A stretch of 64,000 nt of DNA from Amanita rubescens (taxonomy: Eukaryota; Basidiomycota; Agaricomycetes; Agaricales; Amanitaceae), in contig WION01000232.1 in NCBI GenBank assembly GCA_015039365.1, forward strand, positions 20,677 through 84,676, given 5' to 3'. Under the pieces are notes generated by a model, which saw only the letters and a program-made list of their open reading frames with translations, was not told where the DNA came from and did no database searches. Shown in pieces: positions 6,950 to 40,727 of the stretch. The position numbers and the translations under genes were made by a program. How positions within the stretch are numbered: the stretch's first letter is position 1; every line of letters begins with the position of its first letter.

Positions 6950-6976
6950 ATGTTTTGTTGTTGCGGTCAACAACGT

Positions 6977-6985: not shown

Positions 6986-6989
6986 CTAG

Positions 6990-7440: not shown

Positions 7441-8053
7441 ACTATGACCCAGATGAATCGCCAACAAACATACAATCTAGTGCACCACCGGCTGCAGGCG
7501 GAGGGCCTGCATATTTACTTGGTCTTTGCGGAGAATCCGTCGTGCCTCGCAGTAGAAATATCCATGGGGAGCTTGACAATGTCTTTTCCTCAAATTCGGA
7601 CAATGTGGGGCCAGCTCAGCCGCATAACCTGTTCATCGACAACATGACCAACAACCTGGGAAATGCCGCGAGCGTGGGGCCGCTTACTACCCCCCACGAT
7701 CTGCCACTTGGTGGGGAATCCACCTTCAACGTGCATGGTAATGAGGGTTCCCTGAGACATTTCATGTCAGTGACCTTTACCTTAGTAGCACAAGCGCAGC
7801 TGCAGGACTTGTTAAGCTTGGTCATTGACAACATGGTCGACGACCCAGGAAATGCTACGAGCGAGGGGCATCAGTATGTACTTAACCCTCATAGCCTGCC
7901 GCTTGGTGGGGAAGCTGTGTTTGGTAGTGGGTCCCTTCGTGATACGTTTTATGCCAGTGACTTTTACTTTAATCCAGACAATGTGGCGCCAGCCCAGCCC
8001 AGCCACTCAATCATTGACATCAACGTCAACAGAAGCCCTTTTCCATTCCCATA
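7441..8053 (+). pseudogene. zf1, 5' segment of two-finger zinc-finger gene, cut by two retrotransposons
   Basis: An open frame from 7443 to 8053 (no ATG; the start exon would be left of the Gypsy element) matches exon 2 of zf2 and zf3. It encodes repeats of about 60 residues with the theme HxLPLGGE...NPDNVAPAQP...IDxN, also found in zf3. It continues in frame at 16220 across the Ty1/Copia insertion. The start of the matching region abuts the Gypsy LTR. No stop or frameshift is present, so the gene was probably functional until the insertions. Confidence 0.75.
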
Positions 8054-8460
8054 TGACGAAGAAGACAGGTCTACGCGAGAGCGTGTCCACAGCATGAGCA
8101 GGTGCAATAGCTTACCTATTGCGATATGATCTTAGCACTACCCTTCGGCGTAGTAGTGATAGTAAGAGGAAGAGAATGGATTGTCCTATTCTACGATACA
8201 GGACAGGTTTATATACTAAGAGAGAACAAATATGTGTCTACATATGTGTAAGCGTATAGTATAGATGAGAAAGTATGGCGTGCTAAGCACACCATAAGAT
8301 GTGACCATGAGTCTATCATGATGTCACCATGATATCATAATGAAGTCATTATGATGTCATCTCTATGTCATACATAAAGGATGACGCGAGCGATATGAGT
8401 AACATTGATTGTAGTCAATCAGTAGTTAATCATTCTATAAATATAATTCTATATTTAACA
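8054..8460 (-). repeat. 3' LTR of Ty1/Copia element 1
   Basis: Plus-strand ends TGACGAAG and TTAACA. Nearly identical to 15808-16214. Contains hairpin-forming stretches such as tatggcgtgc/gcacaccata (about 8276-8298) and cactac/gtagtg (about 8137-8158). Confidence 0.95.
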
Positions 8461-8472
8461 CACCCCTTCGCT
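8461..8472 (-). promoter_or_regulatory. Polypurine tract of Copia element 1
   Basis: On the minus strand the sequence just before the 3' LTR reads gcgaaggggtg. The equivalent site in Copia element 2 reads cgaaggggag. Confidence 0.6.
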
Positions 8473-8482
8473 TAGATATCCT

Positions 8483-10500
8483 TTATTTAAAGTCTATAAT
8501 GTTCTCATCATAGAAAGGATCTATAGCAGATTCAAAATCGTCAATGAGATTTTCTAGAAGTTCCATCAACTTCTCATGTGATAGACGGTCTATTCCATCT
8601 AATTCAAGATCTTGCCAATCAAGAATTAATTTCGTCAAATCACGAATTTCATCAGAATCCATCCTATCTGGTTTTCTGATTAAGGAATTTGTTGAAGTTG
8701 GATATTCTTCTAAAGAAAGTCCCAATCGTTCTCTAAAGAATTTGACGTTTTCAAAGGATAAATTCTTAGTCATGAGATCCGCATTTTGTTCATTTGTTGG
8801 TATATATTTGAGGACTACCTTTTTAGTCTCGATCAACTCGCGAACGAAATGATAGCGAATATCAATGTGTTTGGAACGATGTTCTTGTGCAGGATTTTGT
8901 GCCCAAAATATAGCGCCTTGGTTATCTACGCTAAGTAAGATGCTTTTAATGGGTGCACCTATTTCGTAAAATAGATTTTCAACCCATGCAATTTGTCTTG
9001 CAGCATCTGATAAAGATATGTATTCTGCTTCAGTCGAAGACAGAGCTACAGTCTTTTGTTTTCTACTCGTCCAAGCTACCGCACCACCAGCTAACATTAA
9101 GACATAACCGTTTATAGATCGTCGTGTATTACGATCAGCGGCCCAGTCAGCGTCAGCGTAGGCTCTAAATTTATTATTGCCTTTGGCACTATAAACGATT
9201 TTGACGTTTAAGGTATGAGCAATGTATTTGACTATATACAAGGCCTTTTGAATGTGTTCTTGGGACGGGTTTGATGAAAATTGGGACATCAAAATTACTG
9301 CATAGATTATATCAGGCCTAGTTCCTAAGGTGAGATATAGAAGGGATCCTATTATCTGTTGATAATAAGAACGTTCCTGTGGTGTGCATTCTCCTTCATT
9401 TTTTATAGGAGCATACCCAGCAGGTAACGGTGTGCGTACAGACTTGCAATCTTCAAGTCCAAATCGCTTAACAACCTTCAAGGCATAAGGACCTTGATCT
9501 ATGACTAAGAATCCTAAATCACGGTTGTAATTGACTTGGATTCGTAAATACTCTTTGATCTTTCCAAGATCACGACATTCCCACATCTCCATAAATTTCT
9601 TTTTAATGGATGCGATGGTGGAATCATCATTTCCCATAAAGAGTATATTGTCGACATACAATATGCATATCGTGATAGTATTCTTGCCTTTACGAACGTA
9701 AACGCCAGAATCAGACAAGCATCATTCAAAATGTAATGATTTCAACGATTTATCAGCTTGTTTATTCCAGGCATATGATGCCTGTTTCAATCCATATATG
9801 GCTTTCCTCAGCCTATATACTTTAGATTCTTGTCCTTTTACAACGAAACCTTCTGGCTGGGCCATGTAAATATCTTCATCAAGATCGCCATATAAGAAGG
9901 CAGTTTTTACATCTAGGGCTTGTATATCCCAGTTTTCAAGCACTGATGTGGCCAGAAGTATTTGGATTGTTTCATATCTCGCTACAGGCGAGAATGTTTC
10001 GTCGTAATCTAATCCGGGACGTTGACTAAAACCTTTAGCTACGACGCGAGCTTTTTTGCAGTCCATCGGTTTTTAAGTCGAAAACCCAACGACATCTGAT
10101 TAGGTTTCGTCCTTTTGGAAGATCAACTAACTCCCAAATATCTCTAGATTGAAGAGATTTAAATTCGTCATCCATTGCAATCTTCCATTGTTTATACAAT
10201 TGAGGATTACTGGAGCGCATTTTAGATATATCTCTATAGTCATATGGAATGTTATCAACAAGGGGAACAGCCGCTTTTAGAAGGAAATGAAGGAATTCAT
10301 TCCCAGATTCATTAATCATTCGAGTTAAATGATCATGTTCCGCAGATTTTAATTCAGACTTTAAAGCGAAGATTTCTTTGAGTAGAGAAGCAGATTCATT
10401 CATTCTATCAGGGTTCCTGTCTGCTGACGGTGGATCCTGAGTCGAAGAACTCGGAGTTTTATCTTTTAACTGCTCTCGTAAAGCTATCTCGCTTTTGCTG
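8483..10500 (-). pseudogene. pol: Copia element 1 reverse transcriptase and RNase H
   Basis: Three consecutive pieces. 10500-10035 carries the start of RT (WVFDLKTDG). 10066-9722 has ARVVAKGFSQR, the Asp of VKTAFLYGDL and LKQASYAW. 9718-8483 has the active-site YVDNILF (Asp-Asn where Asp-Asp is usual), ADADWAADR, SSTEAEY and the RNase H end KHIDIRYHFVRE. 9718 continues the previous frame after an in-frame TGA (9722-9724) where Arg is expected. The other breaks are one- or few-base shifts. RNase H is followed by a charged tail of about 60 residues not needed for catalysis. Confidence 0.85.
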
Positions 10501-10528
10501 AATTTCTGCTTCTATTTGTGCAGGAGTT

Positions 10529-12464
10529 TTATCTCCATACGCGTTGTCTCTTTGTATCCCTTGGAATTGGAAAACGACCAGAACGGCGAGGACCTATTTG
10601 TACAGAGGGTGGACCAGGATCAGATACGATCGGTGGAGGAGGTCTAGGTCTCTGAGCAAATTCTCTAAAACGATCTCTTTGACGTTGTTCAAATTGATCA
10701 AATTCTCGATCCGTCATAAATGGGTTTTCTATTTCATCACGATCTCTTTGATTCAAAGAGAAGGGATTATCTTCATCCATAGGACTACGAGGCGAAGGTG
10801 ACCTAGATACATATGGTATCGGAGTTATAGGCCTAGAAGGAACAGGAGTCTCCTCTTTTATTTGTGGAGAGGGAGTACGTCTAAAGGGTTCAGGAGTTTT
10901 ACGTTTCTTAAACATATCACTCATTTGACGTTTGAATTGATCTCGTAAACGAGACTGTTTATCAATTCCTTGACCCTTTTTCCAATCATCGCGTTGTCTA
11001 CGATAATTGTCACGTCTTTCTTGTTCTCTTTCTTCCCTTTGCCTTCGGATATTATCATCCAAAAAATCTCTTCGACGATCGGCAAATTCATCACCGTCAT
11101 CATCATCGTTTGAATCATCAGAAGGGTCTGACTGCTGTCGATCAGGAGATGCACCCCTTCGATCCAAACTTGGTGAGCGTCTACGGCTTCGGAGAACGTC
11201 TACGGTTCTCTGGGAGTAAGTCATCTAAATCCAAATTTTGTGGAGGGCGGTTAGGTTCCTCTTGAGGAATCGCCTCCCAGATCGGACCAAGATCTTCAGT
11301 AATTATATCTGCAGTCTTTCCTTTGCGCGGAAACCTGTTTTCAAAGAATGTAGCCTGGGAGGATATGACCAGTGTGTTTGTCGACGTCATGAACCTATAG
11401 CCTTTGGTTCCTGATTCATATCCTACAAAAGTGCATAAAACGGATTTCTCGGACAGCTTATCCGGTCTCCGTTGATCAGGGATAAATACCCAGGCTTCAC
11501 ATCCAAATACTCGAAAGTATGATACGTCTGGTTTTTTATTAAGAAGATTTTCCAGAGGGGTCTTCCATTTAGTCCGTTTTAGGGGAGTGCGGTTGTACAC
11601 ATGCACAGCCGTTCTGAATGAGAACTCCCACCAAGATTTCGGACATCCTGCGTCTAATCGCATAGCCTCAGCTTTGTCTGACAAAGTCTGATTCATGCGT
11701 TCAACGCGACCATTTTGTTGTGGGGTGTAAGGAGCTGTCTGTTGATGTTTAATTCCTTTGGATTTAAGGAATTCTTCAAAGGCTTTATTTACAAATTCCC
11801 CCCCTCGATCAGAACGGAGGTGAGAAATAGGTTGTTTAGAATCTACAAACTCATTATACCAACCGGTAAAATATTCTAGAGTTTGATCTTTGGTTTTTAA
11901 TAAACCAATCCACGTATACGAGGTGAAATCGTCAACGATAACACCAATATATTTGTATTTGTGGTAAGATATGGCCGGTACGGTCATAAGATCCATATGG
12001 AGTAACTCAAAAGGACGAGTAGCTCTCTTTGAAGACAGTTTATAAGGTTTTGCCTTCATTTTGCCTTTTAGACAACCTTCACAACGTAGTTTTCCTTCTG
12101 GAAGTGTAACTTCTTTCCATCCATTGACATTTAACGGTATCTTCGAAAAGACTTCATTAGATGGATGACCAAAACGTTTATGCCAGGTTTCGTAGTCTAA
12201 TAATTTTTCTATAGACTCTGCGTTTGGTTTCTTTGTCGGTCTTCCAAGAATTAATTTTGAATTCCTGTTGGCTAAGCCAGGACCGGAAACCAGTGTAGGA
12301 TTCATTATAATAATCCTACCTCGAGCGTAAACTAATGTATCATCGGGCATAAGATAATGTCCTTCGATACACGTTCTACCCGAGTCTGTAAAGGAAAAGA
12401 CTACCATCTTTTCATCTTGTTTACAAGTTAATCCTTGTCGGATCAATCTACCGTTTGAAATCAA
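10529..12464 (-). pseudogene. pol: Copia element 1 integrase and Arg/Asp-rich linker
   Basis: 12464-11181 encodes the integrase: zinc-binding H-x4-H (HKRFGHP) and C-x2-C (CEGC), then the catalytic triad Asp (HMDLM), Asp (RSDRGGEF) and Glu (QQNGRVERMNQ). 11224-10529 in the next frame is a linker rich in Arg/Asp/Glu and Pro leading to RT. Single-base frame changes separate integrase from the protease ORF (about 12456) and from the linker (about 11200). Integrase inserts the cDNA into the genome; the 5-bp duplication seen matches this enzyme class. Confidence 0.87.
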
Positions 12465-13606
12465 GCAGTGCAGTTGCTCGTGGCATATAAAGGACAGGGA
12501 AGAGCTTTACGAGTGTTGTTTCCCCTGTGGATAACTTGTGTTCAAGAATAACTGTGCCAAGTCCCTCAAGATGATCTAAACCATTAGCAGTTTTAACACT
12601 GTGGTTTTCATTTGCAGGAAATTCTCTGTATTCAGAGAAGTCTTTCCTACTAAAGGTAAAGTGATCAGATGCACCGGAGTCACACATCCATAGTGTATCT
12701 CCAGTACGTTTCTCAACACATTCCGGACAGGGACATGTCGGATGTACTTTATCCTTAAATTTTCTTTTATTGACCGCTAAACATGTAAAAGGTTTCTTAA
12801 ACATGTTACCAATATTATATGATCGTTCGATCATATTTGCATTATAAATGGCAGTATCACACGACTTATCTCTTATGAGGCAGTTTTCGTCTAAATTTTC
12901 TTTATAATTTATACTATCATATAGTACAGATTGTTCAAAGAAGGAATTTATAGTACGACGATGATGTCCCAATTTAGGGAACACCATTTTCATCGCTGCC
13001 TCTATAAAGAGAAAGTTAGCCATTTCCAGCTTCTTAATGGTTTCATACCATTGTTCGCCGTTATCTTCATAGTAATAATCGTCATAATATAGTTCAGCTT
13101 CCTGATCTATATCCATATTTTTATAATCGATATCGTCTGACGATATCCCCATTCCTCGGTTCGATTTATAGGACTCAAAGTCCTGTTCGTCCTTTTCTCT
13201 TTGTTTGCCTTTGCTAGAGCCGGCAACTGGCTCAGTGATGTCATAAGGCCCAATACGGGTGACGGTATGTGCAGAACTCATAGTATGTTCTGCGGCTTTG
13301 GCAGCCTTTTTCTCGGCTGCATCTGCCTTTCGGCGTTCTCAGGTTCCTCTCCCAGTTAGGACCACGTGTTTGGCCCTCAACTTTACCCGGCCAATTTTGA
13401 TTTGCCGGAGGAGCAGTAGGAGCCGGTGTCTGAGTGCCTTGTGGAGGCCTAGAATAAGGCCTCCCCCCACGTCCACGACCTGCTCCGCGGCCACGTCCGC
13501 GAGCACGTCCTCGTCCTCGACCACGTACTTGTTGCCATGGTTGCTGCTGTTGTTGCGATGTATTAGCCAGTCGCGGCAGATTCAGGGTGCCTTCGGCGCC
13601 ACTCAT
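12448..13606 (-). pseudogene. pol: Copia element 1 RGG region and protease
   Basis: 13606-13241 carries an Arg-Gly repeat (RGRGRGRARGRG) after a Gln run, a nucleocapsid-like RNA-binding segment in place of a zinc knuckle. The frame then shifts to 13281-12448, which contains a region rich in Asp and Tyr (about 13140-13040) and the aspartic protease motif CDSGASDHF (about 12690). A CPCPEC pair precedes the protease. The shifts at about 13590 and 13320 look like single-base indels because both frames continue sensible sequence. Confidence 0.8.
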
Positions 13607-14337
13607 TCTGTATTAAGGGAAGTATCCCTTGGATCGTAAGATCCGATGGTTCTGTTGTGGCTAGAACCACAGCGGCAAAATTGTCCCAATGACGGGGGAC
13701 AGCTGAAAGTACAATCATTGCCTGTACATTTGCAGGCAATGTAATTCCGCTTGATGCTAAGCGGTTAATGATGGCGAGGAGGTCGTTTAAGGATTGTGTG
13801 GGATCCTTTTTATCTTGGAATTTCCAATTTATTGCTAATTGGAAATCATTGTAAATACCGGCAGATGTTGTCACACCGTATTGTTCTGCTAAGTTCTGCC
13901 ATAGAACTCGGGCAGAAACTACATGTTCATTAATCTGCTGTATAGTAGCAGTACATTTCATGTTTATGGATCCGAGGATGCGATCATCCTCGACGACCCA
14001 ATCATCAAAGGCCTTTTTGATAGCCTCTGCATCATCAATCATTTGTTGAGTGATGGCGGGTTGTGCCGGTTGTGCCGGCATTGCGGGTATCGCATGTTCA
14101 GTTTCCGTTTCTGGAACTGCTGCTGTTGCTGGAACAGCTGGAACAAAGGCTTGAACCCCTGTGTCCAGGATAAAATTGTTCCAACGGCGTTATCCGTCTT
14201 GGACGAACATAATCGGTTTTTAGGTACCGATATAGACCTTTGGTTTGTAATAGGAAACGCATCATGCGTTCCCATTCTTTATAGTTAGTTCCATTCAAAA
14301 CGGGAATGGAACTAGGAATCGTCAAGTCGTTAGACAT
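13563..14337 (-). pseudogene. gag: Copia element 1 gag
   Basis: Start ATG at 14337 (MSNDLTIPSSIPVLNGTNYKEW), the usual Copia gag opening in which the Tyr-Trp pair of the N-terminal domain is present. A one-base shift near 14165 moves into the frame 14100-13563, which holds the conserved helical capsid part ending NEWRRRHPE. The start codon follows the stop of the upstream ORF by one base (TAA C ATG on the minus strand). Confidence 0.8.
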
Positions 14338-14338
14338 G

Positions 14339-14890
14339 TTAGACGAGGAAGGCGGAGGTGATGATTATGATATAGGCGGTTAAAAGACGCCAAAAGAAAC
14401 GGAAGTTTCTTTGATTTTCGAGGTTTTCAACCTCTTGGTTATCTCTTTCGAGATTATGGCGTGTACGCCTATTTGCTATGTGTTGGGCTACTGAAGTGCC
14501 CCTGGGTGGAATCCAAAGATCTAAGGTGGGTGAAACACCTTCTTCGATAGCTGCTTGTCTACGACGATGTATTATTTCGTCTTGCAAGGTACGACCGTTT
14601 CTAAGTCGCGCGGCTAGGAAGTGATCTCTTCGATCGTGAACTGTGACAGGTCCACGAGTTGTGACACCAAATCTGGTATCAGAGTTGACAACACGAACTA
14701 TCGTCCTAGAATAGGACGAAGATGGAATTGGTGCCGGTGTATCAATAAAAGTCCGGTCCCCTAAGATTAAGGGAAACGGTGGGATTGGAGCGTCGTAAGA
14801 AGGAGGTAATCTCCGGGCAGGAGGAAATGATTCTCCTTCGGCTTCGTAAACTGGTAGCGGAGTACTAGTTTCGGAATCCAGTTTTCTTTC
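14339..14890 (-). CDS. Extra 5' ORF of Copia element 1 with C-terminal hydrophobic tail
   Basis: Open frame of 183 codons just upstream of gag and in the same orientation. It has no ATG. It opens right after ...ctcttttag on the minus strand, which resembles a 3' splice site, so a start exon may be spliced in from the leader. Residues 1-100 are Pro/Ser/Arg-rich, the middle is charged, and the end is a membrane-like segment (RLLTAYIIIITSAFLV) of the tail-anchor kind. I know no Copia protein like this. It could be captured host sequence or an N-terminal extension of gag. Confidence 0.45.
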   Translation of the reverse strand, partial: ERKLDSETSTPLPVYEAEGESFPPARRLPPSYDAPIPPFPLILGDRTFIDTPAPIPSSSYSRTIVRVVNSDTRFGVTTRGPVTVHDRRDHFLAARLRNGRTLQDEIIHRRRQAAIEEGVSPTLDLWIPPRGTSVAQHIANRRTRHNLERDNQEVENLENQRNFRFFWRLLTAYIIIITSAFLV

Positions 14891-15794
14891 CTAAAAGAGA
14901 ATTTAATGAGCTTAAAGCTTAATTAAAGCTAAAAGTCTAATTCAGTCTTTATTAAGTTATCCAGGGTGCCATAGACTAGAATGTCAGACTATATAGAGTT
15001 CCTCGGTTACGAGTACAGTCCATATTCGGTTAAACCAACCGACCCTGAGTAACTTAGTTACAAGCCAAGCTTAGATAAAGCTCAGGTCCACAGGTCCACA
15101 GGTCCACTCGGTCTTGAAAGCTCGGATTATCCCTGAATGCTGTAAATGACATGCAAAGTCAATCGCATGGCTCAAGCGCTCTTGGGCGAACCACGGTTTT
15201 ACCCGTTGCGATTGTAAATAGAAATAATGTCTGGTCCATAAACCCCCCAGACCATTATATAAGCACGACCAGTAATCAATATGAAACTTCTAAATGGGAT
15301 TATGGGATCACCATAGAGCCCAAACTTAGAATGATCCTAACGATCATTCCGACTAAAGGAGTCCCTAAGGGCGCATCCTTAATAGACTGCGTGTACCACC
15401 CACAATGAGGTGTCAGCACGTCCTTTATACTAGAAGTTTCTATATACGAGCCATATTGTATTATAAAGCCTCTAAGGGGCTTATTATGGTATAGCGTGCA
15501 ATGAATACCCCAGTCATCATCATGAGTGCGCAAGCGCTAAACACTCATGTGGGGGCCGACGTTGCCATGCCAGCGTCGAGAAACATAGGTAGTACCCTTA
15601 TCCCTGGGTGTCTAGGAGATCCCCCTAAAGCCCTAGGGTCCGGGCGCATGTCATTAGCGCATATGCCATATCAAGGATTAGTGATATCAAGATGATAAGA
15701 CCATATCAGGCTCGCTGCGATACTATACCAGTGGGACATCATGTCGGATGACGAGCAAGCGAGCGGCGATGTGGGTCCTGGCAATATCGACGGC
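14891..15794 (-). other. Leader of Copia element 1
   Basis: About 900 nt between primer site and first ORF with no long frame. It contains several short palindromic runs (for example gatcaccatagagcc and ctaacgatcattcc) and a triplicated 'aggtccac' at 15084-15105. Seen as untranslated leader. Confidence 0.4.
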
Positions 15795-15807
15795 GGGGCC
15801 CATAACC
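15795..15807 (-). promoter_or_regulatory. Primer-binding site of Copia element 1
   Basis: Minus strand reads GGTTATGGGCCCC directly after the 5' LTR. This is complementary to the anticodon arm of initiator tRNA-Met (GGGCCCATAACC), the half-tRNA priming known from Drosophila copia, rather than to a tRNA 3' CCA end. Confidence 0.7.
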
Positions 15808-16214
15808 TGACGAAGAAGACAGGTCTACGCGAGAGCGTGTCCACAGCATGAGCAGGTGCAATAGCTTACCTATTGCGATATGATCTTAGCACTACCCTTC
15901 GGCGTAGTAGTGATAGTAAGAGGAAGAGAATGGATTGTCCTATTCTACGATACAGGACAGGTTTATATACTAAGAGAGAACAAATATGTGTCTACATATG
16001 TGTAAGCGTATAGTATAGATGAGAAAGTATGGCGTGCTAAGCACACCATAAGATGTGACCATGAGTCTATCATGATGTCACCATGATATCATAATGAAGT
16101 CATTATGATGTCATCTCTATGTCATACATAAAGGATGACGCGAGCAATATGAGTAACATTGATTGTAGTCAATCAGTAGTTAATCATTCTATAAATATAA
16201 TTCTATATTTAACA
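15808..16214 (-). repeat. 5' LTR of Copia element 1
   Basis: 407 bp, one base different from 8054-8460. Followed by the CCATA target duplication. Confidence 0.95.
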
Positions 16215-16219
16215 CCATA

Positions 16220-16712
16220 TTCAGCTGGCACGGATGTCGCCTCTTCCTTGAGCATTGCTGAGATGCGCGCATCACCACCTGCCCCACAGCAGGCTCCAGA
16301 CGGGAAGCATGTTTCCCCAACGAATCAACCCATTCGCCGGAGGATTTCTCGCCAGGCATCGAATGGGAAGCATGTTTCCCCCACGAATCAGCCCATTCAC
16401 CGGAGGATTTCTCGCCTAGCATCGAACAAGAGGCGAAAGAAACCAGCCAATTACCGCTGTCCCGACAAATCCTGCGATGCGGACTATACACAGAAGCATA
16501 ACCTCAAGTGTTTGTACTTGGTCACCTGATGTATTTCCCGATTAACATTGAAACGTGCAGATCACCTTAATATGCATAATAATCACCGACCTTATAAATG
16601 CAACTACAAGGATCAGGGCTGCGACTTTGATGCAACGGCACCCAGCATCGTGGCGCGCCACAGTATTACTTGCGAACACAGGCTGAAGAATGCAGAAATT
16701 CGTATGGGTTGA
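16220..16712 (+). pseudogene. zf1, 3' segment: C2H2 finger, intron and C2HC finger
   Basis: The exon continues in frame from 8053 and ends at 16509. The intron 16510-16560 has donor GTTTGT and acceptor CAG. The last exon is 16561-16712 (TGA). Splicing makes finger 1 as C-x4-C-x12-H-x3-H and finger 2 as C-x6-C-x12-H-x3-C (CNYKDQGC...RHSITC). Before the fingers there is a duplicated 26-residue block (GKHVSPTNQPI-RRRIS twice). It is the same architecture as zf2-zf4. Confidence 0.75.
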
Positions 16713-21357: not shown

Positions 21358-22198
21358 ATGTTTTTTCCAGATTTTCTTCAAACAGGGTGCCAAGATATCC
21401 CGGATGAGGGAACGTCATTTATTGGTTCGGGATCCAACGACTTCTTTGGTGAGTCCCCCCTCTTTATTTATTTATTTCACGTCCCTACTGATTAGAGCTT
21501 CCGCTAATAGGCTTCAACTCATCCTTGACGACCCTCAACCCGGGTGAATCGTCAACAAAGTCACAACTTGGTACTACGATGTCGGCTGCAAGCGAGCGGC
21601 CTCCGTATGTGCTCAATTCACTTGGCAAAGAATCTGCCTTTTCTATACCCGGTGGAAATCTTGGGTGCAAGGTGTCTTACGATCATGGCTCTTGCTCCAG
21701 ATATCCAGACAATGTAGCACCAACCTCCCTACCACCGCATCCGATCACTGACAACGACAACCCCGGAAATCCCTCGCCATCCCTGCATACAGCTAGCATG
21801 GATGTCGCCTTTTTCAAAAGCTCTGCCGAGCTGTATAGATCGTCACCAGTCCCGCAGCCACCTCTGGACAGGATGTGTATTTCTCCGATGAGTCAGCACA
21901 TTCCGAGAAATGCTGTTCGCCGGGCATCAAACATGAGGCGGACAAGACCAGCTAGTTATCGCTGTTTCCTCTGCGGTGCAGATTACACGAAAGCACACAA
22001 CCTTGATTGTTTGTCGTTATTCACTGATGTATTTCCCGACTGATATTGACACATGTAGATCACCTCAACGTGCACTTCGATCGCCGACCATATGATTGCG
22101 AGCACAAGCATGAGGGCTGCAATTTTAGTGCGGCGGCGCCCAGCACGGCGAGGCGTCACAGTAAAAGTTGTAAATATAATCCCAAGTTGAATACGTAG
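21358..22198 (+). CDS. zf2, two-finger (C2H2 + C2HC) zinc-finger protein
   Basis: Three exons: 21358-21448, 21511-22008 and 22059-22198, giving 242 residues. Introns are 62 and 50 nt with donors GTGAGT and GTTTGT. Start ATG at 21358 gives MFFPDFLQTGCQD; zf4 opens similarly with MSQDAV. Exon 2 is Ser/Pro/Asn-rich with one NVAPTSLPPHPITDND repeat and ends in basic RRASNMRRTRPASYRC. Finger 1 is C-x2-C-x12-H-x3-H and is split by intron 2 between Asp and Tyr. Finger 2 is C-x6-C-x12-H-x3-C (CEHKHEGC...RHSKSC). Probably a nuclear DNA-binding protein. I do not recognise an orthologue. Confidence 0.75.
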
Positions 22199-24373: not shown

Positions 24374-24395
24374 CTCCCCTTCGAGCTGAGCAATA

Positions 24396-27350: not shown

Positions 27351-27454
27351 CCATTTTACGGTGTAATTCGTTTATTGACACCTTTCCGGATGCAGCTAGA
27401 GCATTATCTACTCCGGAAACACCTTGTGGAGCAATCGACACTCGGTATAATCCG

Positions 27455-28771
27455 TTAACCTTCGGAATGTGAGCAATAACTCGACGTTCGGGTCTGGCAG
27501 GTACTGATGGTACAGATTCCATCTTCAGTGAGGATCTGGAATCCTTTGTCATCCATCGTCCCCACGGATACCATCGTGAATGCGAAATCGGGTGCGTAAT
27601 ACACATTTCGGAGTGTAACTTTAGTTGGCTGACAACCTTTTCCCATAGGGAGCAATAACTTTAGATCGCCGCGGCCCGTAGCTTGTAGCAAGAGACCGTT
27701 GGCAGCTTTAATAGGTCTTGGGGGAATTTCGGTGAAATTTGCAAGATCGGAACGGTTCGGAGTGAAGTGCCGGGTGGCTCCGCTGTCGATGATGACGTGG
27801 CCATCGCTTGGGACGCTGGCTAGGGCTTCTAGAGGTTCGGTGGGGCAGCATTGCACTGCGAGTGATACATCATCCTCGTCGGGCTCGGTAGACTCGGCGG
27901 CATTTGCTTTGGCATTGCCGTCTTTGGTCTTCTTCTCCCATGGTGCCTGGCCTTCTTTTCCACCGCCTTTTCGGTAGCAGTCCTCCTTTTTGTGCCCGGT
28001 ACGTTTGCAATTGACACATTTGATCTTTTTCTTATCATCCCGTCTTTTAGACTGCGCAGCTATCATTGCTGCATTCTCGGCAACCCTATCTGCCTCTTTA
28101 TGGACTTTTTGCTCATCGGCTTCTTCGTGGATAGCTCCAATGATTTCGTCGCTAGTGAGTATCTTCTTATTGACACGGGCAGTGGCGCTGAGCGTTTGTA
28201 ACAGGGAGCGGTAACTCGCTGGGAGTGATTTGCGAATCATGGCAGCGAATGACGGATCGGATATGGGAGCACCCATGCCTTCAAGTTGCTCCTTCAGTTC
28301 CGACATGCTCGCAAGGTGAGCACGTATGTCGTCATCCTCGAGACAGACCATAGTTTGCATCCTCGAGAGAACGCTAACTTGGATTAGGTCGCCTTTGTTC
28401 TCCATGATCGACACCAATTTGTCCCAGACTTTGGCAGCTGTATCCTCGTTTTTGACTTGGAGGAATAAAGACTGGCCTATCGTCTCGTAAATGACTTCAC
28501 GGACTGAGGCCTCTTTTTGCTCGTACTCGTCCTGTTCTTTTTCGAGTGTGGTGAGCATGGTAGGGGTGAGTTCACTTGTTGTACCCTTCTTGTAGGCTTT
28601 GTCATCTTTGAATTCAATCTCGGCAGGCTTCCGCGCGGTTCCAGTAACATGTCGCTTGAGACCCTTATGAGTGAGAGTATTTATAATCCTCTCGCGGTAC
28701 GTTATCCAATTGGTACCGTCGTCCTTGAGCTTCGGGAGCTTCAAGAGCTTGAGGGTGTCTGTTGCTGACAT
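27455..28771 (-). CDS. gag: Copia element 2 gag-protease
   Basis: Start ATG at 28771 (MSATDTLKLLKLPKLKDDGTNW), only 26 nt inside the LTR border. Gag helical domain covers residues 1-230, with LPASYRSLLQTLS typical of Copia gag. A CCHC knuckle (CVNCKRTGHKKEDC) is at about residue 252. Protease has VIIDSGATRHFTPN at about residue 330. The frame ends at 27455 in a wrong reading after a one-base shift near 27510; the other frame carries on with RRVIAHIPKVNGLYRV towards integrase. Confidence 0.87.
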   Translation of the reverse strand: MSATDTLKLLKLPKLKDDGTNWITYRERIINTLTHKGLKRHVTGTARKPAEIEFKDDKAYKKGTTSELTPTMLTTLEKEQDEYEQKEASVREVIYETIGQSLFLQVKNEDTAAKVWDKLVSIMENKGDLIQVSVLSRMQTMVCLEDDDIRAHLASMSELKEQLEGMGAPISDPSFAAMIRKSLPASYRSLLQTLSATARVNKKILTSDEIIGAIHEEADEQKVHKEADRVAENAAMIAAQSKRRDDKKKIKCVNCKRTGHKKEDCYRKGGGKEGQAPWEKKTKDGNAKANAAESTEPDEDDVSLAVQCCPTEPLEALASVPSDGHVIIDSGATRHFTPNRSDLANFTEIPPRPIKAANGLLLQATGRGDLKLLLPMGKGCQPTKVTLRNVYYAPDFAFTMVSVGTMDDKGFQILTEDGICTISTCQTRTSSYCSHSEG

Positions 28772-28783
28772 GATGGATTCTCC

Positions 28784-28796
28784 GGGGCCCATAACC
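28784..28796 (-). promoter_or_regulatory. Primer-binding site of Copia element 2
   Basis: Minus strand GGTTATGGGCCCC next to the LTR, identical to the site of Copia element 1 and complementary to the anticodon arm of initiator tRNA-Met. Confidence 0.7.
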
Positions 28797-29064
28797 TGTT
28801 GGCAGGGAAAATTTACCGGGGCGAGATTCTAAGGAACGAGCCTCAGTTATGATATAAAGAACTTGTATTAAAGAGTGAACTACCTAAGGAACGACTGCGG
28901 TAAGATTAGTATGAATGTAAACGAATGAATAGGTAACAACTCACGCCTCAGTTATGATATAAAGAACTGAGGCGTGCAGGCGAACATTCGACGTATCAAA
29001 TATCAATCAAATAAACATGCACAAATATTGGACTTAGCCGTAGCGCAACGCTCGTACTCCAACA
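28797..29064 (-). repeat. 5' LTR of Copia element 2
   Basis: Same 268-bp sequence as 24106-24373 with two substitutions, followed by CGATC. Confidence 0.95.
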
Positions 29065-29069
29065 CGATC

Positions 29070-29510: not shown

Positions 29511-29720
29511 TGGTTCTCATTATGACGCGCGGCAGATAAGGTTATATGACGGGATCACGTAAGAACCAGAAGAACGGAAAACAACCTGTGTAAGCGAAAT
29601 GACTGTAAGTCAAGGAAGTCCAAATAGTACAACGTAGAAGTAATGAACGAATCGGATGCGCGTGTATACGGATGCGGTATCTTGCCCGGGATCATGAGCA
29701 CGAGGTGGTTCAGGTAGGGT
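29511..29720. repeat. Module M3 at the 3' end of RT copy 2
   Basis: Shares aaggttat..cgtaagaaccagaagaac..gaaaac and atgaacgaatcgg..gtgtatacggatgcggtat with 36665-36852 and 41985-42171. It lies immediately downstream of the RT stop, as at 42-43 kb. Confidence 0.7.
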
Positions 29721-30990
29721 CACAGAAGAGCACCTCCAGTGTATTTCGTTTGTACGACGGTAACACGGGCAGAGTCTCGGTATCGACAATCGAGATGTCT
29801 GGCAGTCTCCTCCTCAAGCTATCGATTTGCCCGCGAGACAACTCGTTGGCGACTTCATTCTCTCTTTGCCTCGAATCAACCACAACTTGAATCGCAAATA
29901 AATCATTGATAAGGATATCAACGGCCGAGAGGAGGACCGGATTGCGATCAGGAACGGACGTCTCTACCGTTTTCAAATTGTCGGTGTAGATCAGGATACG
30001 ATCTTTGAGATTACGCCTGTGAGAAATGTGGATAGCCCAGCACACGGATAGTGCTTTGAGGAAGGGGCTGTCCCCATTGGTTGGTGAGGCCGCTCGGAAG
30101 CCAGTAGAAGCCTCTTTGTAGTAGCAACCCAGGCCTCTCCGCGATGCGTCACAGAAGAAATGGTGGTTCGCCTGGGTCGGCGTCCACGCAATGGACTTGA
30201 TGATGTGAACGCCTTTCAGCTTCGCTGCGTGGGCAGCGAACCAAGAAATCTCGAATTTGATGGCGGCGTCCACATCCACCTCTTCGTCCAGTTTCTTTTG
30301 GGAATTGGAACCGATTGCCGCGTGGAGCGTCCGCAACCCTGGCTTAAGCATAGGAAATGTTAAACGGTAACACGCTAATAGTAAAGATGTACTCAGTTAC
30401 GAGTGTTCGTACTTATATTAGTTGCATACCTAATAGTAAAGATGTACTGTACGACATAGATTAGAAAGGTATGCGTGGAAATTGTTAGAATTATCTCACC
30501 TCAGTTACGAGTGTTCGTACTGAGGTGAGAGAGAGGAATGGGGGTCTATATATATGTTTACGAATGTATCCGTGAAGCGTATAATGCGGCATGTAACAAT
30601 GGGAATGAGCGGGTGAGTAGAATGAGGCAAATGATGCGCTTTATACCTGTAAAGCGCATCTTATGACGTACTAAGCGTTGCAATGTTCAACAGGAAAGGC
30701 AGATAATGACCTTGCAGCGTCTGGCGACGGAGCAAAAGTGTCGAATCATTGAAAGCAGTTTATCGAGCCTTTCCTTGGGTAGGGTGATTGTCATGGTATT
30801 GGGATCCACCAGAAAACCGGGAATTTCGAGGGTTTCGCCGGAGACCCGCTTCCTCTCATCGTGGGGGATTCCTAATTCTTTCCATAGTTTGAGCAATCGA
30901 GCCTGCTTCGTCGGTAACCTTTTCTTATAAGGCACATAGTACTCCTCTGACGAGGCTAGTTCAAAAGAAAAGCAGTTGTCGGTGTACAGC
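29715..30990 (-). pseudogene. DIRS-like RT/RNase H fragment (copy 2), split by a solo LTR
   Basis: 29710-30351 encodes the RNase H part (FFCDASRRGLGCYY, IYTDN, ANELSRGQ), closely matching residues of the full copy at 43.2-45.2 kb. A solo LTR at 30358-30692 interrupts it. 30693-30990 continues the RT C-terminal part (KKRLPTKQARLLKLW, FLVDPN) with two small deletions. At about 30990, inside the RT active-site region, the sequence jumps to an unrelated sphingomyelinase-like gene. Confidence 0.85.
30358..30692. repeat. Solo LTR, 335 bp
   Basis: Begins TGTTAAAC and ends GTTCAACA, flanked by GGAAA at 30353-30357 and 30693-30697, exactly where the intact RT copy has a single uninterrupted GGAAA. 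It holds a direct repeat (ctcagttacgagtgttcgtac twice), the second inside a perfect hairpin CTCACCTCAGT/ACTGAGGTGAG, echoing the layout of the Copia 2 LTR. Confidence 0.85.
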
Positions 30991-31900
30991 TGGATCTAGA
31001 AGCAAATCTGACAGATGCAAGATCTTGACTCGCTTTCCGCTGGCTCTGGGAATGTGACGTTCTCCGGCTTTGGCTTCGGGAAGAGGTTGCTGGTGTCGCG
31101 TGGGGCTCGTGACTGGCTCCGGGCAGAAGCTGCCGAAGGCATGACAGATATATTGATCCAAGCCTTGCACATCAGCAAAATAGAGTACGGTCGTCAAAAT
31201 AGCTCCAAAGTTGGTAGCGTTGAAGCTCTCTTCGCAAGACGTATTGGAAGCGAACTGGGCGGATTTGCATAGGGAAATCATGGTCTCCGGAACCAACGAC
31301 GGCGTCAACTGAGCTGCAACCAAGGCATTTTGACACCGGGTGCAGGTGCTAGAACCATCATTTGCCTCAAGCACCTTGGTCCTTCTTGAATCACGGCTTG
31401 GGCCTGCTGTTGAGTCAAATGCTCCTTGGGTTCGGGGTAGTAAACCGGATCGTGGTTCTCAGTCGGAATCGTGTTGGGATCCGTCAGGTCGGCTGGGAAT
31501 GTCGATTTCAGAACAGGATCGTAGATCGCGGGCTGGGGTTCTGCCGTTGGCGTCGCAGGCGAGAAATAGTAGGACCTGTATCCAATCGTTATTAAATATC
31601 GTATACCATGGGTTGAAGGAGCATGTATCGGCGACAATACTTACGTGAAAGCGCTAGTAGGGAAGCCAGCTGGAGCCACAGCCCATTTCCAACTGTAGTG
31701 TTGAAATTAACAATGTTCCTATCAGGGGAGTCAAAATTGAGAGGATGAAAGTGTAAGGGTACACACCGCCTGCCCCTCCGAATGTTTGATAAATAGTCAT
31801 CCTGCCTTTGTTGGGTATTGAGTTAGCAACGCGCTGCTGATAAATAGCACTTGGTCTCCAAAGCTCGGACAGCGGTGCCAAGGTCGGCTCCAGCTTCCTC
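30990..31900 (-). pseudogene. 5' fragment of an acid sphingomyelinase-like phosphodiesterase gene
   Basis: Minus-strand pieces read SYYFSPATPTAEPQPAIYDP, then a saposin-like Cys pattern (CTRCQNALVAAQ, SLCKSAQF, CEESF, CHAFGSFCPEP), then KRVKILHLSDLLLDP, the first motif of the metallophosphatase domain. That order matches secreted acid sphingomyelinase-like enzymes, which cleave sphingomyelin-type lipids. An intron fits between about 31646 and 31577. A one-base loss near 31376 shifts the frame, the metal-binding His of the SDxH motif is Leu, and the gene stops at the junction with RT at 30990. Non-functional. Confidence 0.7.
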
Positions 31901-33480: not shown

Positions 33481-34873
33481 CGTTGAAACGCAATTCGGAC
33501 AAAAGGGAGAGAGGGACATCCACTGTTGCATACGGGACCATATTAGGGACCACCTAGATCACTCACTATGAGCTTAGTATCCTCCATTGAGAGCGACGGG
33601 AGTAAGGCGGGGCACAAAGGGGCAACAGAGACACGGGACAAGGTTATACAGCCGAGGAGCGAATAAGCCAGTAGCGGCAGGTGGAGCACAACAGGGGCAG
33701 CGGAGCCGATGTCGGATTATTTGGGTTTATTTTGACATGAATAAACCTTAACGGTTTAACGTTTAACCAGATAGTAAAGCTTGGTTGAGCGGCATCAAGC
33801 GCGCACAAGGATCCGTCCCGTATGTGGTATTGGTGTCATCTCGGTGACGAAATGCCGCGGGAAGATAGTAGTGTTGATCTGGACGTGGTGATCTTTATGA
33901 GAAGAAATGACGCAGTGCTAGAATCTGCGTTCTGTTCACTTGACCGAAAAATATGTCAGGAATGTTTTGATATGCGACCCAGCTAGGCACAGGCAGTTGC
34001 AGCTACAAGATATACCAACACGTCTCATTTCAGAGGTAAAACGTCCCTACGTCACTCTACTGTCGACCACTCCACCGCTATCACAATTCTGATACGAGAT
34101 TGGTTTCTAGTTAGGGTCAATCGTTAGCTTCTATCACTCAAGAGATAATACTCAAGGCTTAGAAAAATTGAAGAGGGACCGGCGGCGTTAAGTATAACCG
34201 AGCAAAGGTGTGGGATGTCTATCATGTAGTCAGCGAAAACTGTTAAACCAATACGCTCAGCCGCCGTCCAATGGGTCACCTGCTGCAACTTCTCCGGAAA
34301 AAATCCGCTGACGGTGCCAGATTGAGTTGTGGGGTCACATTACAGAATTATCCCGCTGTTAATGTTTGGTGATGTCATTGTTCCTTTCTAGGCTGACCAG
34401 CTTGGTGGCGTAATAACTGAGTTCCCATTTGGGGACATGGTCGTTGCTCGATTGTCCGAGTCCTATTCTAGGTGTTGTGGAAGGCACAACTCATGCTACT
34501 GCTTCTTCGCATTTTTTCTGTTATCTAGTACCGAACGTTCTTTTCCAGGCTCACCAAACCGTTTCTGGTGGAGTAATAACTGAGTTCCCATTTGGGGATA
34601 TGGTCGTTGCTCGAGTCCCCAATCTCACTGCTGTATTCTAGGTGTTGTGGAAGACACAACTCATGCTGCTGCCTCTTCGCACGCCTGCCAAAGCACTTGT
34701 ACAAAAGCCTGGCCGTTCTACGCTTATCCGTCCATAATACACGTACGAGACGTGACATGGACCACCCATGTGGGTTTTGTATTGCAGGAATTTGCACCGT
34801 GGATATTCGAATAAGGCTTGCTGTTGAAGATATTCTTCTACCTTTTCTTACGGGGCCACTGGCAGATCTGTCA
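33481..34873 (+). repeat. Module P and upstream region of zf3
   Basis: 33890-34060 matches P copies upstream of zf2 and zf4. 34389-34530 and 34546-34690 are two local copies of about 140 bp (aataactgagttcccatttgg..gttgctcga..attctaggtgttgtggaag); zf4 has one copy at 39820-39930. Then gcacgcctgccaaagcacttgtacaaaagcctg is shared with 39945-39975. Probably promoter or untranslated exons of zf3. Confidence 0.55.
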
Positions 34874-35955
34874 ATGATTCAAAATGCGGCCGACGGAATG
34901 TCGTATCCCGAGGGACTCTTTGGTGATTGTTTCCTCGTTATTTTCTGCGTTTCTGCTCAGTTGACTTACCACTATCAACCCAGGCGAATCACCAGCAGAT
35001 ATGCAATCTAGTACCACGTCGGCCGCAAACGAGAGGTTTGCACACTATCCAGTTCATCTACCGCTTCGCGGAGAATCTGCCGTGGGTGCGCTTTGCAACA
35101 TTCCCGGGATTGTTTGGAATCCGGACAATGTTGCGCCAACCCAGCCATGGGACAACAACCCGGGAAATCATGATGCTGCGAGGGATTGGTCTCAATATAT
35201 GGTTAACTCGCACAATCTACGAGCAAGCGTGGAATCCACGTTCGGCGTGCCTGAGAATGGAAATCTCGAGAAGCTTTACACCGGTGACTTTTCCAATGTG
35301 GCGCGAGCGCGGGCGCACGACCCAATCATTGACGAGAACCCCGACCCCAGAAACCCTTTGCCACCCTCGATTTTGGCCAACCCGGGAAACGCGAGCAAGG
35401 GGCCTCAGTATGCGGCTAACCCGCACAATCTACCACCTGGCGGGGAACCTAATGGAAGTCCTGACAGTGACTTTCTCCTGAACCAAGACAATGTAGCGCT
35501 AGCGCAGCCATGCGACCCGATCATTGACGAGAACTCCGACCCCACTGGAAACCATTTTCCATCCCCGGTTTTTGCCAACGTCGATGGCATTTTCTTCCAG
35601 AGCACTGCTGACCTGCGTTCATCGCCACCCGAAGTCCCGCCGTCATCTCCGGACACGATGTATGTTTCTCTGGCGAATCGGCGCCGAACGAAGCAAGCGA
35701 AGTACCATTGTCCTGTCATAGGCTGCGATCATAAAGGCTTCACAGCGATGCATAACCTCCGCTGTTTGTACTCCTCCACCTGATGGTAATTTTTCCCGAC
35801 TGACATTGAAACACGTAGATCACCTCAATACACATAATCATCGTCGACCGTATAAGTGTAAGCACAAGGATTGGGGCTGCGATTTTAGTGCAGTGACGCC
35901 CGGCACGGCGACACGTCACAGTAGGACTTGTAAACATAAACCAAGGGATACGTAA
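34874..35955 (+). CDS. zf3, two-finger zinc-finger protein with three N-terminal repeats
   Basis: Exons 34874-34922, 34984-35763 and 35819-35955; 321 residues. Introns 61 and 55 nt. Start ATG gives MIQNAADGMSYPEGLFG, like zf4. Residues 30-225 hold about three degenerate repeats of about 60 residues (HNLPPGGE, QDNVALAQPCDPIIDEN), which explains the greater length than zf2 (242) and zf4 (166). Finger 1 is C-x4-C-x13-H-x3-H, one residue longer than in the sisters. Finger 2 is C-x6-C-x12-H-x3-C (CKHKDWGC...RHSRTC). The intron splits finger 1 at the same place as the others. Presumed DNA-binding. Confidence 0.75.
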
Positions 35956-36852: not shown

Positions 36853-37457
36853 TCCTAACCCTTGACTACGCCCATCCCTCGTGTGATCTCAATCTCCCTC
36901 AGGAATCCTCCGTTGGAGACATTACTTTTCGTGCTTACAGCTTCGATAGTCTAAGTCTTCACAATTTTTTGCGTAAAAGCTACTCTTAGAATCGGCCTGA
37001 TCACCCCCCCGACGTAGCCTCAAAACAAACCAAAACAACATCAAAAAAAAATTTCTCTGCGTTCACCAACAATGACAACGAGAAGAACTATACAAAACCA
37101 GTCGACAACGACCTTCGCGCCATGCCCGGGAACCTGGCCAAGGAACTAGAGACAGCAACCAATTGCCGCAAGTCGCGCTACCAGACACACAACGTCGTGG
37201 CCCAATCCGACGTAGGTTCTTCCACTAACGGCCTAGGCAATAAATGGGGCCACGACGGCGACGATCCTAAAAATCCGAGACGGGCGCCCAGTGGAGGGAG
37301 CCGGTACATAACGCCGGCCCGTTGAATCGACACATCGCCGACTTTTACTGCCACAGGGACCTAGGCGAGGAAGGAGAGAATCGTAGAATGATGCGTTTCT
37401 CGTGGCGTCGTTGAGTGGCCGGACCCCAGGTGTTCTTGAGCACGGTTGTAACGCAGA
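36853..37457 (+). other. No supported gene; short ORF at 37122-37325
   Basis: An A-rich stretch (about 37020-37060) precedes ATG at 37072 (MTTRRTIQNQSTTTFAPCPG), a short Thr-rich frame that shifts into 37122-37325. It could be the start of a lost element ORF. Low confidence. Confidence 0.25.
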
Positions 37458-38555
37458 TGGTACGGGGAAAGTGATGCATAAGGAAATGTGGTTGGTGAAG
37501 TGGCGGCGACGAAGAGACGGGACACGGTGATTAGCGCGTTCTCGTCGCACACATAACCCGCGCTGCGCGTTTTAGGTCATCTAGCAGCACGGAGAGGCAT
37601 AGTTGAGATGCGCGATGGTGATAATTCGTGTGCCGGCCGGTGTAGAAGTATCTGGTTGTAACTCGGTGTAACGTTACAATGGCATGCATGTTATTCTATG
37701 GGACAGTTGGGAAGGTATCTTGAGACGCAGAGCTAGCTGTTGCTTGTCACGAGGAAAGGAGCCACGAGAGACAAGGCACCAGCAAGGTTGATCCAAGCAG
37801 AAATCCAGTCCATAGATAGCCAAATCTCGCGCTCCTGTATCATAGGTACTATCCGGCGGAGTACGGCGATTGGAGGAGCGTCGCGGCTGTTCGCTTTTTG
37901 AGTTTCCAGGTAAATCAGCGATCAAGCATTCACGTAGATGGTAACCGGGGGAGACGTCCATTCTACAATGAGGTTCTTCAAGCTTCGTGGTGTGGGAGGG
38001 AATAGGCTGCGTCGAACCTGAGTGCGCTCTCAGAGAGTCGTCGATATCCAGGATGTAGTACAGACACTGGGAGAACGTCAACGGGAGTTTCTTGGAGTCG
38101 GTTAGTGTGTTAACAGAATGGGCCGGGAGGTCAAAGGGGATGAACGATGCGGGGAAAGGGTAAGGCGACCGCAAGTCAACGCATGGCGTGGAGCGTGGGT
38201 AGGAGTGGTCTAAGGTAACGCGTAGTTTCACCGGTGAAACATTCACGTGTTGGATGATATCCAGAGGCGCGGTTAGTGCTTGTTTGGGTCAAGTGGCAGG
38301 TACCAGGGGCGTTTGAGGGCGGGGCGGGATGCCAACACGAGGAGGGAGGGAGCAAAGGTCAGCCGGAGGATGTAGGCAGAGGGCTGCATCAGCAAGGACC
38401 ACAAGAAGTAGTAGAAAAGCGTCTTGGGCAGGGGACAGTCGAAGGGTGATTCCAGGAGCAGTCAGAAGGGCGGTGCATACCGTAGAAGCCTGTCCCCTGA
38501 GCCTGTCACAGGATCATCTTTGATAGGAAAAGTCAAGGCTTGACATTGCCCGGTT
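37458..38555. repeat. Module M1, second copy
   Basis: Homologous to 16897-18135. On the minus strand a 190-codon frame (38246-37674) is open, containing CVDLRSP-YPFPASFIPFD as in the first copy. The RNase H-like end lies in another frame here. Decayed. Confidence 0.6.
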
Positions 38556-40146
38556 GTCCCAGGCCTGTCAGCGAGGGACCTAGTTCCAAGAGGATGGAAA
38601 GCCGGTCTGCCTCCGGAAGTCCTTCTGTTGGGGCAAGTATGTCAACGCAGGTCACAAGTGGTCTCGAAGCGCCACCACTGGCAGTTGAGTTCCGTTACAT
38701 ATTCAACTTGACGTTCACGTCTGGTCACATATGTCACACCCTCCTTATGTCCGACTCCACTCACGACTTCTAGCACCCAATCTGGAAAAGCCATCGGGCC
38801 TCAGATCGGAGGGAAGTGTCTCGCGACGAAGAAGCACCCTCAAATGACATCCAGGTCCGAGATCTGTACCTTGAATCCACCCCCTGTGCAACTGGGATAC
38901 TAATAGTGACATGCCGTGGGTATCCTTGTCAAAACAAATGCTGTTTTGTCGTTGATCAGGTTCCGCTCAAGTGCCTGGGCTTGCTGCAGCTATGTTCGCC
39001 ACCGACGTACATGGAGCAGAAACCCTCGAACTGTTCGTATGTGCGTTGCAACACGCCGCCCGGGTTGCACTGTTTGTGTACTCCAGTTTCTGAAATATGA
39101 GGCTCAGCGAATCGTTCCAGACGATGGAGCCACGGGCAAGGTAGGGAGCGGTACTTACTACTTAATGACTAAGACAAAAGACACAGTAGTGTAACGTGGG
39201 ACGAACTTGCATTCTTGTTCCAAACTCAAAAAGGATTAAGCTCGGCGACCGTGTCTAATTTTTGGATCCATCCCGTATGCAGCAATACTTTTTTATATCA
39301 AACTCGCATCATCTAAATGACAAGTTACAGCCGTCTGGACATGGTGATCTTTATGAAACTTGACGTAGTGTTGTGAGGTTTTCTAGAATCTGTCATACAA
39401 GCTTTCTGCGCACCTCCAAAAAATGTCAGAAATAGCCTTTTGATGCACAACGCAGTACTTTGAAGCATATGCCAATATCGCGACTCGTTTCAGGTTAGCC
39501 GAAACATCCCAAAGCCACTCTACCGTCGATCTTGGCATTTTCTCCGGACAAAGTTTGTTGACGGACCCAGAGTGAGTTGCGTATGTTATGGAGTCGCGTT
39601 ACAGAATAAACCAGGTTGGTGAGACGTTGTGAGTCGAGATTGAAATTCGGCATCGCTATTCTGTGGTTTAGTACCGCGCCGCCAATGTGCAGCGTCGGCG
39701 GAACGGATAATTTTGGCCTCGCGGTAATGTCGCCACTCATGATCACGAACAACGTCGGCAGTTTACGGAAGATTCTATTCCCCGACTAGAGTGCCCTGTG
39801 CGTGCTCCATTCTTTTCCAGGCTCGCCAACCGTCTCTGGTGGTGGCAGTTCCCATTCGGGGATATGCGTTGGTAATGTCATTCATCAGGATTTCCGAAAT
39901 TCACTGTATTCTGTGTTATGGGACTTATGCTACTGCCCCTTCGCACGCCTACCACAGTACTTGTACAAAAGCCTGCCTTGCGGCAAATATCCTATCCTAT
40001 CTGCTCTACGCTTATCCGTCCATAATAATTGTATGGGACGCGATATGGGTGACCCATGTGAATTCTGTATTGCAGGATTTTGCATCGTGCATCTTCGAAT
40101 AAGCCCTGCCGCCGAAGCTATTTTTTCATCTTTTCCTACTCTGTCT
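38556..40146 (+). repeat. Upstream region of zf4 with module P
   Basis: 39340-39520 matches the P modules of zf2 and zf3 (ggacatggtgatctttatgaaa; caggttagccgaaacatccc). 39820-39980 matches the block before zf3. 38556-39250 has no supported gene. Confidence 0.5.
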
Positions 40147-40727
40147 ATGAGCCAAGATGCGGTCAATGGAACGTCCTATTCCGAGGGATACAATAACTTC
40201 TTTGGTGAGTGTTACCCCCTTATTTTCTGCAGTTGACTCACCACTGAATCCATACAATGTAGTGCGAGCGCAGCCTCGCGATCCGATCATCGACAAGAAC
40301 TTCAACTCCAGAAACCCTTTGCCATCCTCGTTTTTGGCCAACGTGGATGTCACTTTTTTTCAGAGCGAGCTGCGTCCATCGCCGCCCGGAGTCCCGCCGC
40401 CGTCTCCGGACATGTATGTTCCTCTGACGAACCGGCGCATTCCCCGGGCATCAAACATGAGGCGAACGAGACCAGCGAAGTACCGCTGTCCTGTCGTAGG
40501 CTGTGATAAAGACTTCACAATGAAGCATAATCTTCACTGTTTGTGCTTATCCACCGGATTGTATTTCACGACTGACATCGAAACATGTAGACCATCTCAA
40601 TGCGCATAATAATCATCGACCGTATGGTTGTAAACACAAGGATCGGGGCTGCGATTTTAGTGCAGCGGCGCCCAGCACGGCGACGCGTCACAGTAGGACC
40701 TGTAAACATAAACTAAAGGGTGCCTAA
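40147..40727 (+). CDS. zf4, shortest two-finger zinc-finger protein
   Basis: Exons 40147-40204, 40233-40538 and 40591-40727; 166 residues. Introns are 28 nt (40205-40232, unusually short) and 52 nt. Start ATG gives MSQDAVNGTSYSEGYNNFFG. Only part of one N-terminal repeat remains (NPYNVVRAQPRDPIIDKN), followed by PLPSSFLANVD and the basic RRIPRASNMRRTRPAKYRC shared with zf2. Finger 1 is C-x4-C-x12-H-x3-H, finger 2 C-x6-C-x12-H-x3-C (CKHKDRGC...RHSRTC). The acceptor of intron 2 and the phase agree with zf1-zf3. Confidence 0.72.

Follow-up and report, generated by a model that had tools for sequence, protein, structure and literature searches.

Lineage-specific and tandem expansions of C2H2 zinc-finger genes have been reported for the Agaricomycotina (PMC12295980), where no occurrence of 'Amanita' was found. 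Here, we describe four linked zinc-finger genes, zf1-zf4, in a stretch of 64,000 nucleotides (the window), which corresponds to bases 20677-84676 of contig C149 of an Amanita rubescens assembly (75.7 Mb, 786 contigs). Positions without a prefix refer to the window, while the prefix 'C149:' (or that of another contig) marks contig positions. Amanita is a genus of agarics with an ectomycorrhizal habit. On balance, we regard it as fairly probable that zf1-zf4 represent a family of two-finger, probably DNA-binding nuclear proteins, which is lineage-restricted as far as our searches reach.

The described systems to which the family can be compared are fungal C2H2 transcription factors such as yeast Fzf1, GLI/KLF-like tandem fingers, Sina/SIAH and TRAF fingers and the mammalian KRAB-type arrays. 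With the C2H2 factors it shares the ligands of finger 1, the linker, the predicted beta-beta-alpha fold, a disordered N-terminal part and a basic patch. Compared to these factors, it stays below the Pfam C2H2 cut-off where scored, its finger 2 has a C-x6-C loop and a Cys as last ligand, and it features an extra N-terminal Cys/His motif and a conserved intron within finger 1. The Sina/SIAH and TRAF fingers resemble finger 2 in the C-x6-C loop, the Gly before the second Cys and the H-x3-C end. The family differs from them in scoring below their cut-offs, in its spacing of x12 instead of x11 and in the pairing with a classical C2H2 finger. KRAB-type arrays also form clusters and differ in copy number amid transposable elements, whereas the family described here has only two fingers, with most base-contact positions conserved and not diversified. 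Neither a RING nor a KRAB match was listed in the Pfam scans of zf1-zf4 and of nine family members.

All four related frames proposed in a sequence-only reading of the window are present, on the forward strand. Gene zf1 lies in three parts: exon 1 is found outside the window (C149:19451-19633), exon 2 is divided into 7453-8053, an open reading frame (ORF) in which 7480-8054 match the uninterrupted allele on contig C143 at 99.5%, and 16215-16509, which encodes the basic patch and the first part of finger 1. Exon 3 of zf1 (16561-16712) contributes the end of finger 1, the C2HC finger 2 and the stop codon (16710-16712). For zf2, exon 1 (21358-21448) follows a deposited allele model, P0004, exon 2 spans 21511-22008 and exon 3 22059-22198. 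The exons of zf3 are 34757-34922, 34984-35763 (matched by the deposited protein P0010 from 35001 on) and 35819-35955, those of zf4 are 40045-40204, 40263-40538 (the intron-1 acceptor being our choice) and 40591-40727. In zf2, zf3 and zf4, exon 3 encodes finger 2 and the stop.

The second intron, at 16510-16560, 22009-22058, 35764-35818 and 40539-40590 in zf1 to zf4, is 51, 50, 55 and 52 nt long, respectively. It starts with GTTTGT and ends with AG in each gene, in agreement with the predicted joints 16509/16561, 22008/22059, 35763/35819 and 40538/40591. In all four genes it interrupts the codon of the Tyr that immediately precedes the first finger-1 His. Splicing had also been said to restore perfect finger spacing in every copy. 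The classical C2H2 spacing (C-x2-4-C-x12-H-x3-5-H) is indeed obtained for finger 1 of zf1 and zf4 (C-x4-C-x12-H-x3-H) and of zf2 (C-x2-C-x12-H-x3-H), but zf3 reads C-x4-C-x13-H-x3-H.

A whole-genome search with the exon-3 peptide of zf3 yielded 44 places (E <= 1), of which 42 were analysed; a place at a contig start (C143:6-77) and a weak one (C75:188-316) were left out. Since the finger-2 exon was used to find these places, copies that have lost it fall outside all counts. An intron with a usable GT-AG pair was found at the finger-1 point in 37 of the 42 places (36 by script, one set by hand), with GTTTGT as donor in 26, GTTCGT in seven and GTTGTA in four copies. The copy set by hand (L058) splits a Phe codon, not Tyr. 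No usable joint was found in one place (C212:43517). Four places are intronless exactly at the predicted joint, where they read HNLQY-HLNGH unbroken; they are alleles of a single paralogue (C149:16308). Judging from its sequence, this paralogue may have kept intron 1 as a GC-AG intron and therefore looks like a case of the loss of a single intron.

Deposited protein models provide additional means to examine the joint. P0010 (F5887DRAFT_1164959, partial, 296 aa) is zf3 itself; it aligns at 100% to 35001-35762 and 35821-35943 and includes the predicted joint, which is also used in P0002, a deposited A. rubescens protein from a copy in a second cluster (cluster B). In P0004, which represents the zf2 allele on C179, another joint is used at the finger, and finger 2 is missing. 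The expectation that gene finders would miss the second finger is thus met by one of these three deposited A. rubescens models and contradicted by the other two. P0001 and P0003 come from the Joint Genome Institute (JGI), where the contigs behind them are <= 992 and 1258 nt long. Both proteins are free of the two introns that the matching genome copies have; for these reasons, we infer that they derive from transcripts. P0005-P0009 and P0011 end in or read through intron 2, as translated genomic fragments would. The finger-splitting intron is now well supported in three ways, by the intronless paralogue, two of the three deposited models and the two intron-free JGI proteins, and the four predicted joints are real and not a product of chance. 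It behaves like an ordinary spliceosomal intron, and we see no sign of a regulatory role.

In zf1-zf4, finger 2 has the pattern C-x6-C-x12-H-x3-C with Gly preceding the second Cys. All eight metal ligands of the two fingers are invariant among 31 distinct sequences, and the short linker between the fingers ends in RPY-x-C in most paralogues. The positions that contact bases in classical fingers are near-constant in the paralogues for His, Asn and Tyr at 2, 3 and 6 of finger 1 and for Ala, Thr and Arg at -1, 3 and 6 of finger 2, while position -1 of finger 1 and position 2 of finger 2 vary. For P0002, two beta-beta-alpha units were predicted, with a predicted local distance difference test (pLDDT) score of 88-95 per ten residues over 191-240. 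The predicted fold resembles solved DNA-binding tandem fingers, with no Foldseek match at E <= 0.001 (best 1.7e-03). The cut-off of PF00096 zf-C2H2 (25.2 bits) was not reached by zf1 (16.9), zf2 (14.6), zf4 (19.1) or P0001 (17.2), and for zf3 no zf-C2H2 match was listed in the Pfam scan. The scan of nine members gave scores, all below cut-off, for the first member (P0001) only; that of zf1-zf4, like the protein search with zf4 alone, was based on exon-2 open frames that include some intron-1 residues. The copies L056 (C246:47610) and L037 (C598:21392) have in common a longer tail after finger 2 (FKPHN...), unlike the other copies displayed.

The first exon had been described as short. When traced with P0001-P0003 as guides, it proved longer, with some 160 nt in zf3 and zf4. 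Soon after a Met it features a Cys/His motif, C-x1/2-C-x4-C-x2-H, which the sequence-only reading had missed. The motif begins exon 1 of zf4 at 40045 as MGDPCEFCIAGFCIVH (C-x2-C-x4-C-x2-H). Exon 1 of zf3 starts at 34757 with MDHPCGFCIAGICTVD, in which Asp takes the place of the last ligand His. In the zf1 alleles the motif reads MDHQCELCIAGLCLEH, and exon 1 of zf1 on C149 (C149:19451) is 93% alike; an apparently decayed version lies upstream of zf2. Of 42 upstream stretches, 28 contain the motif, 24 of them with a Met no more than six residues away. It is absent from the 42 antisense stretches and, in 50 shuffles, occurs on average 0.2 and at most two times per set. The pattern was derived partly from sequences that were then counted, so the 28 of 42 describe its spread and are not an independent test. 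The zf4 exon-1 piece gave no Pfam match and that of P0003 a weak C5HCH match under the cut-off; no confident fold was predicted for the exon-1 piece from an alignment of five rows, two of them with translated intron.

A protein search with zf4 alone found nothing at E <= 0.001 among 18 candidates. Relatives were retrieved with a profile built from nine paralogues, and P0010, P0011 and P0012, the last a generic finger protein of fish, came in with a second profile; in both profile searches only the 7993 best candidates, chosen by most common words, were scored. Within this scope, A. rubescens was the only named species among family-level relatives from the zf4 search and the two profiles. No paper on the family was found in a literature search judged by title and the start of the abstract. 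The description of the family as unrecognised holds for its function and for the lack of a Pfam match above cut-off, but not for zf3, which is already deposited as F5887DRAFT_1164959.

Selection was examined in a codon alignment in which 41 places collapsed to 31 distinct DNA rows (C212:43517, which has no joint, was left out). For the fingers (57 columns), omega, the ratio of nonsynonymous (dN) to synonymous (dS) substitution, is 0.47, and twice the log-likelihood difference (2 delta lnL) to omega = 1 at the same kappa is 47.3. Without the 11 invariant columns of the finger stretch omega is 0.58 (2 delta lnL 20.3), and with the basic patch included it is 0.60 (2 delta lnL 32.9). The comparison of zf3 with zf4 gives a dN of 0.135 and a dS of 0.376 for the fingers, and a dN of 0.325 and a dS of 0.697 for exon 2. 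The exon-2 ratios of close alleles and paralogues start at about 0.3 and exceed 1 at the upper end; they exclude zf1 on C149 and group B on C179, where the stretches compared may not be homologous. Finger counts among close alleles are small and scattered, and the zf4 alleles show amino-acid changes only (1, 4 and 5 vs 0). The fingers are thus under purifying selection, as had been suggested, but the constraint is modest. A ratio near 1 among copies, named beforehand as evidence against selection, was not observed for the fingers, whereas some close exon-2 pairs reach or exceed it.

The analysed places lie mainly (29 of 42) on four syntenic contigs, C149 (eight), C59 (seven), C143 (six, plus the unanalysed fragment at the contig start) and C179 (eight), on which the order of the family is kept; the other 13 are on C212, C472, C726, C598 and C246. 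An ORF flanking the array is likewise present in four copies, 98-100% alike, on the same four contigs, which we term haplotype-like. One locus is thus found on four near-identical syntenic contigs, where a dikaryon would predict two. Copy number differs between these contigs: zf3 was found on C149 alone among the analysed places, and C179 holds one paralogue twice. C149 and C143 begin inside the array, so that their first members may be missing. The zf2 alleles at C59:82517 and C149:42734 are identical in the fingers and intron 2 and diverged upstream in exon 2 (dS 0.155), a pattern suggestive of recombination or gene conversion.

All frames and splice sites had been thought intact in the four copies, a claim that zf1 does not sustain, since it is interrupted by two long terminal repeat (LTR) elements. 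Intron 1 contains a gypsy-like element on the forward strand (C149:19685-28116), whose 3' part fills window positions 1-7440, with pol/gag-like ORFs at 1278-6949. The junction is evident from the C143 allele; the target duplication ACTAT is at 7441-7445, and 12 bases separate the element from zf1 exon 2. A copia-like element on the minus strand (8054-16214) occupies exon 2, as supported by self-BLAST, the empty site on C143 and its absence from the alleles on C59 and C179. Its LTRs (8054-8460 and 15808-16214) show one difference in 408 aligned bases, and its target duplication is CCATA (8049-8053). Both type labels are our assumption from the ORFs of the elements. On C143, C59 and C179, zf1 is free of either element. 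The C143 allele has a 17-bp insertion with a frameshift in exon 2, while the alleles on C59 and C179 are open, so two of four zf1 alleles are disrupted (C149 and C143).

Other repeats are found nearby. What we take to be a second copia-like element lies between zf2 and zf3 (24105-29065); with LTRs (24105-24374 and 28796-29065) of 99.3% identity, it is another young insertion. The stretches 29717-30991 and 43185-45224 are about 92.5% alike and carry an ORF which is presumably of the reverse-transcriptase/RNase-H type; a Pfam search of 43188-45224 gave no match at 0.001. A hAT transposase C-terminal dimerisation region (PF05699, E 4.9e-19) was found at 42485-43117. Units of 60/120 bases are repeated in tandem at 59700-60586, where the minus strand has an open, Cys-rich repeat frame (CWCNKTTGKCVGHSSQ-like); Pfam gave no match for 59771-60223. 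A dioxygenase label for the ORF at 52246-53367 was dropped, as Pfam gave no match.

Other readings of the family have some of these observations in their favour. The finger-2 pattern with its Gly, together with weak matches to Sina_ZnF (at best 23.5 bits, E 7.2e-05, finger 2 of P0001) and zf-TRAF (at best 19.1 bits, E 0.0023, zf1), would be expected if the fingers were mainly a protein- or RNA-binding module with a Sina/SIAH- or TRAF-like finger 2 and the proteins were adaptors. We consider this unlikely, but not negligibly so: neither score reaches its curated cut-off (32 and 27 bits), the Cys-His distance of finger 2 is that of classical fingers, most paralogues have the short RPY-x-C linker between the fingers, and the fold matches are DNA-binding tandem fingers. 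The disruption of zf1 on two of four contigs, the apparent loss of the exon-1 motif in zf2 and its alteration in zf3, the omega values of 0.47-0.60, the exon-2 ratios of up to above 1 and the LTR elements all around the array would instead suit a tandem array in decay, set among repeats, whose copies are for the most part relics with hardly any function left, or none. This appears improbable, because only one of the 42 places lacks intact fingers (although the search by the finger-2 exon favours intact ones) despite a dS of 0.38 between zf3 and zf4 and longer distances elsewhere on the tree. Invariant ligands, an omega that differs from 1 even without the invariant columns, and the transcript-like P0001 and P0003 point the same way.

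It is very improbable that the genes were spread by a mobile element, whether as its cargo or as its derivatives. Members do sit between LTR elements and form a second cluster besides the zf1-zf4 array, but their order is the same on the four syntenic contigs, on which the flanking ORF is equally kept, the copies carry introns, and the LTR elements interrupt zf1 instead of carrying it. Copies bounded by element ends at differing places were not found, though not every one of the 42 places was inspected for such ends.

A bolder proposal, which we rate slightly below the relic explanation, is a regulator family confined to Amanita whose metal-binding layout would be new and consist of three parts (N-terminal C-x1/2-C-x4-C-x2-H, C2H2 and C-x6-C C2HC). 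The array would then be a haplotype-variable locus, at which the nuclei of one mycelium have different sets of intact copies reading the same DNA site, with loss by retrotransposons and gain by duplication tuning dosage between haplotypes.

Taken together, we favour two-finger, probably DNA-binding nuclear proteins, and conclude that zf1-zf4 belong to a real and largely unnamed gene family of a known type, distinguished by an unusual finger 2, the N-terminal Cys/His motif and the finger-splitting intron. The proteins would be small (about 190-360 residues). Most copies would start with the Cys/His motif; a long Pro/Asn-rich stretch without structure, a patch rich in Arg that might take part in nuclear import, and the C-terminal pair of a C2H2 and a C2HC finger would complete the layout. 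The two fingers would form a tandem unit that recognises a short stretch of DNA. Since most base-contact residues are near-constant, the paralogues would read the same or a similar site and would differ mainly via their fast-changing N-terminal part, expression or dosage. The expansion is of an ordinary type, and the members are probably gene regulators. The family lies below the thresholds of standard domain scans, an automatic model misjoined one of three deposited cases, and the intronless paralogue represents a natural test for the finger-splitting intron. With two open and two disrupted alleles across four haplotype-like contigs, zf1 provides a usable case of young LTR insertions removing members of a clustered regulator family.

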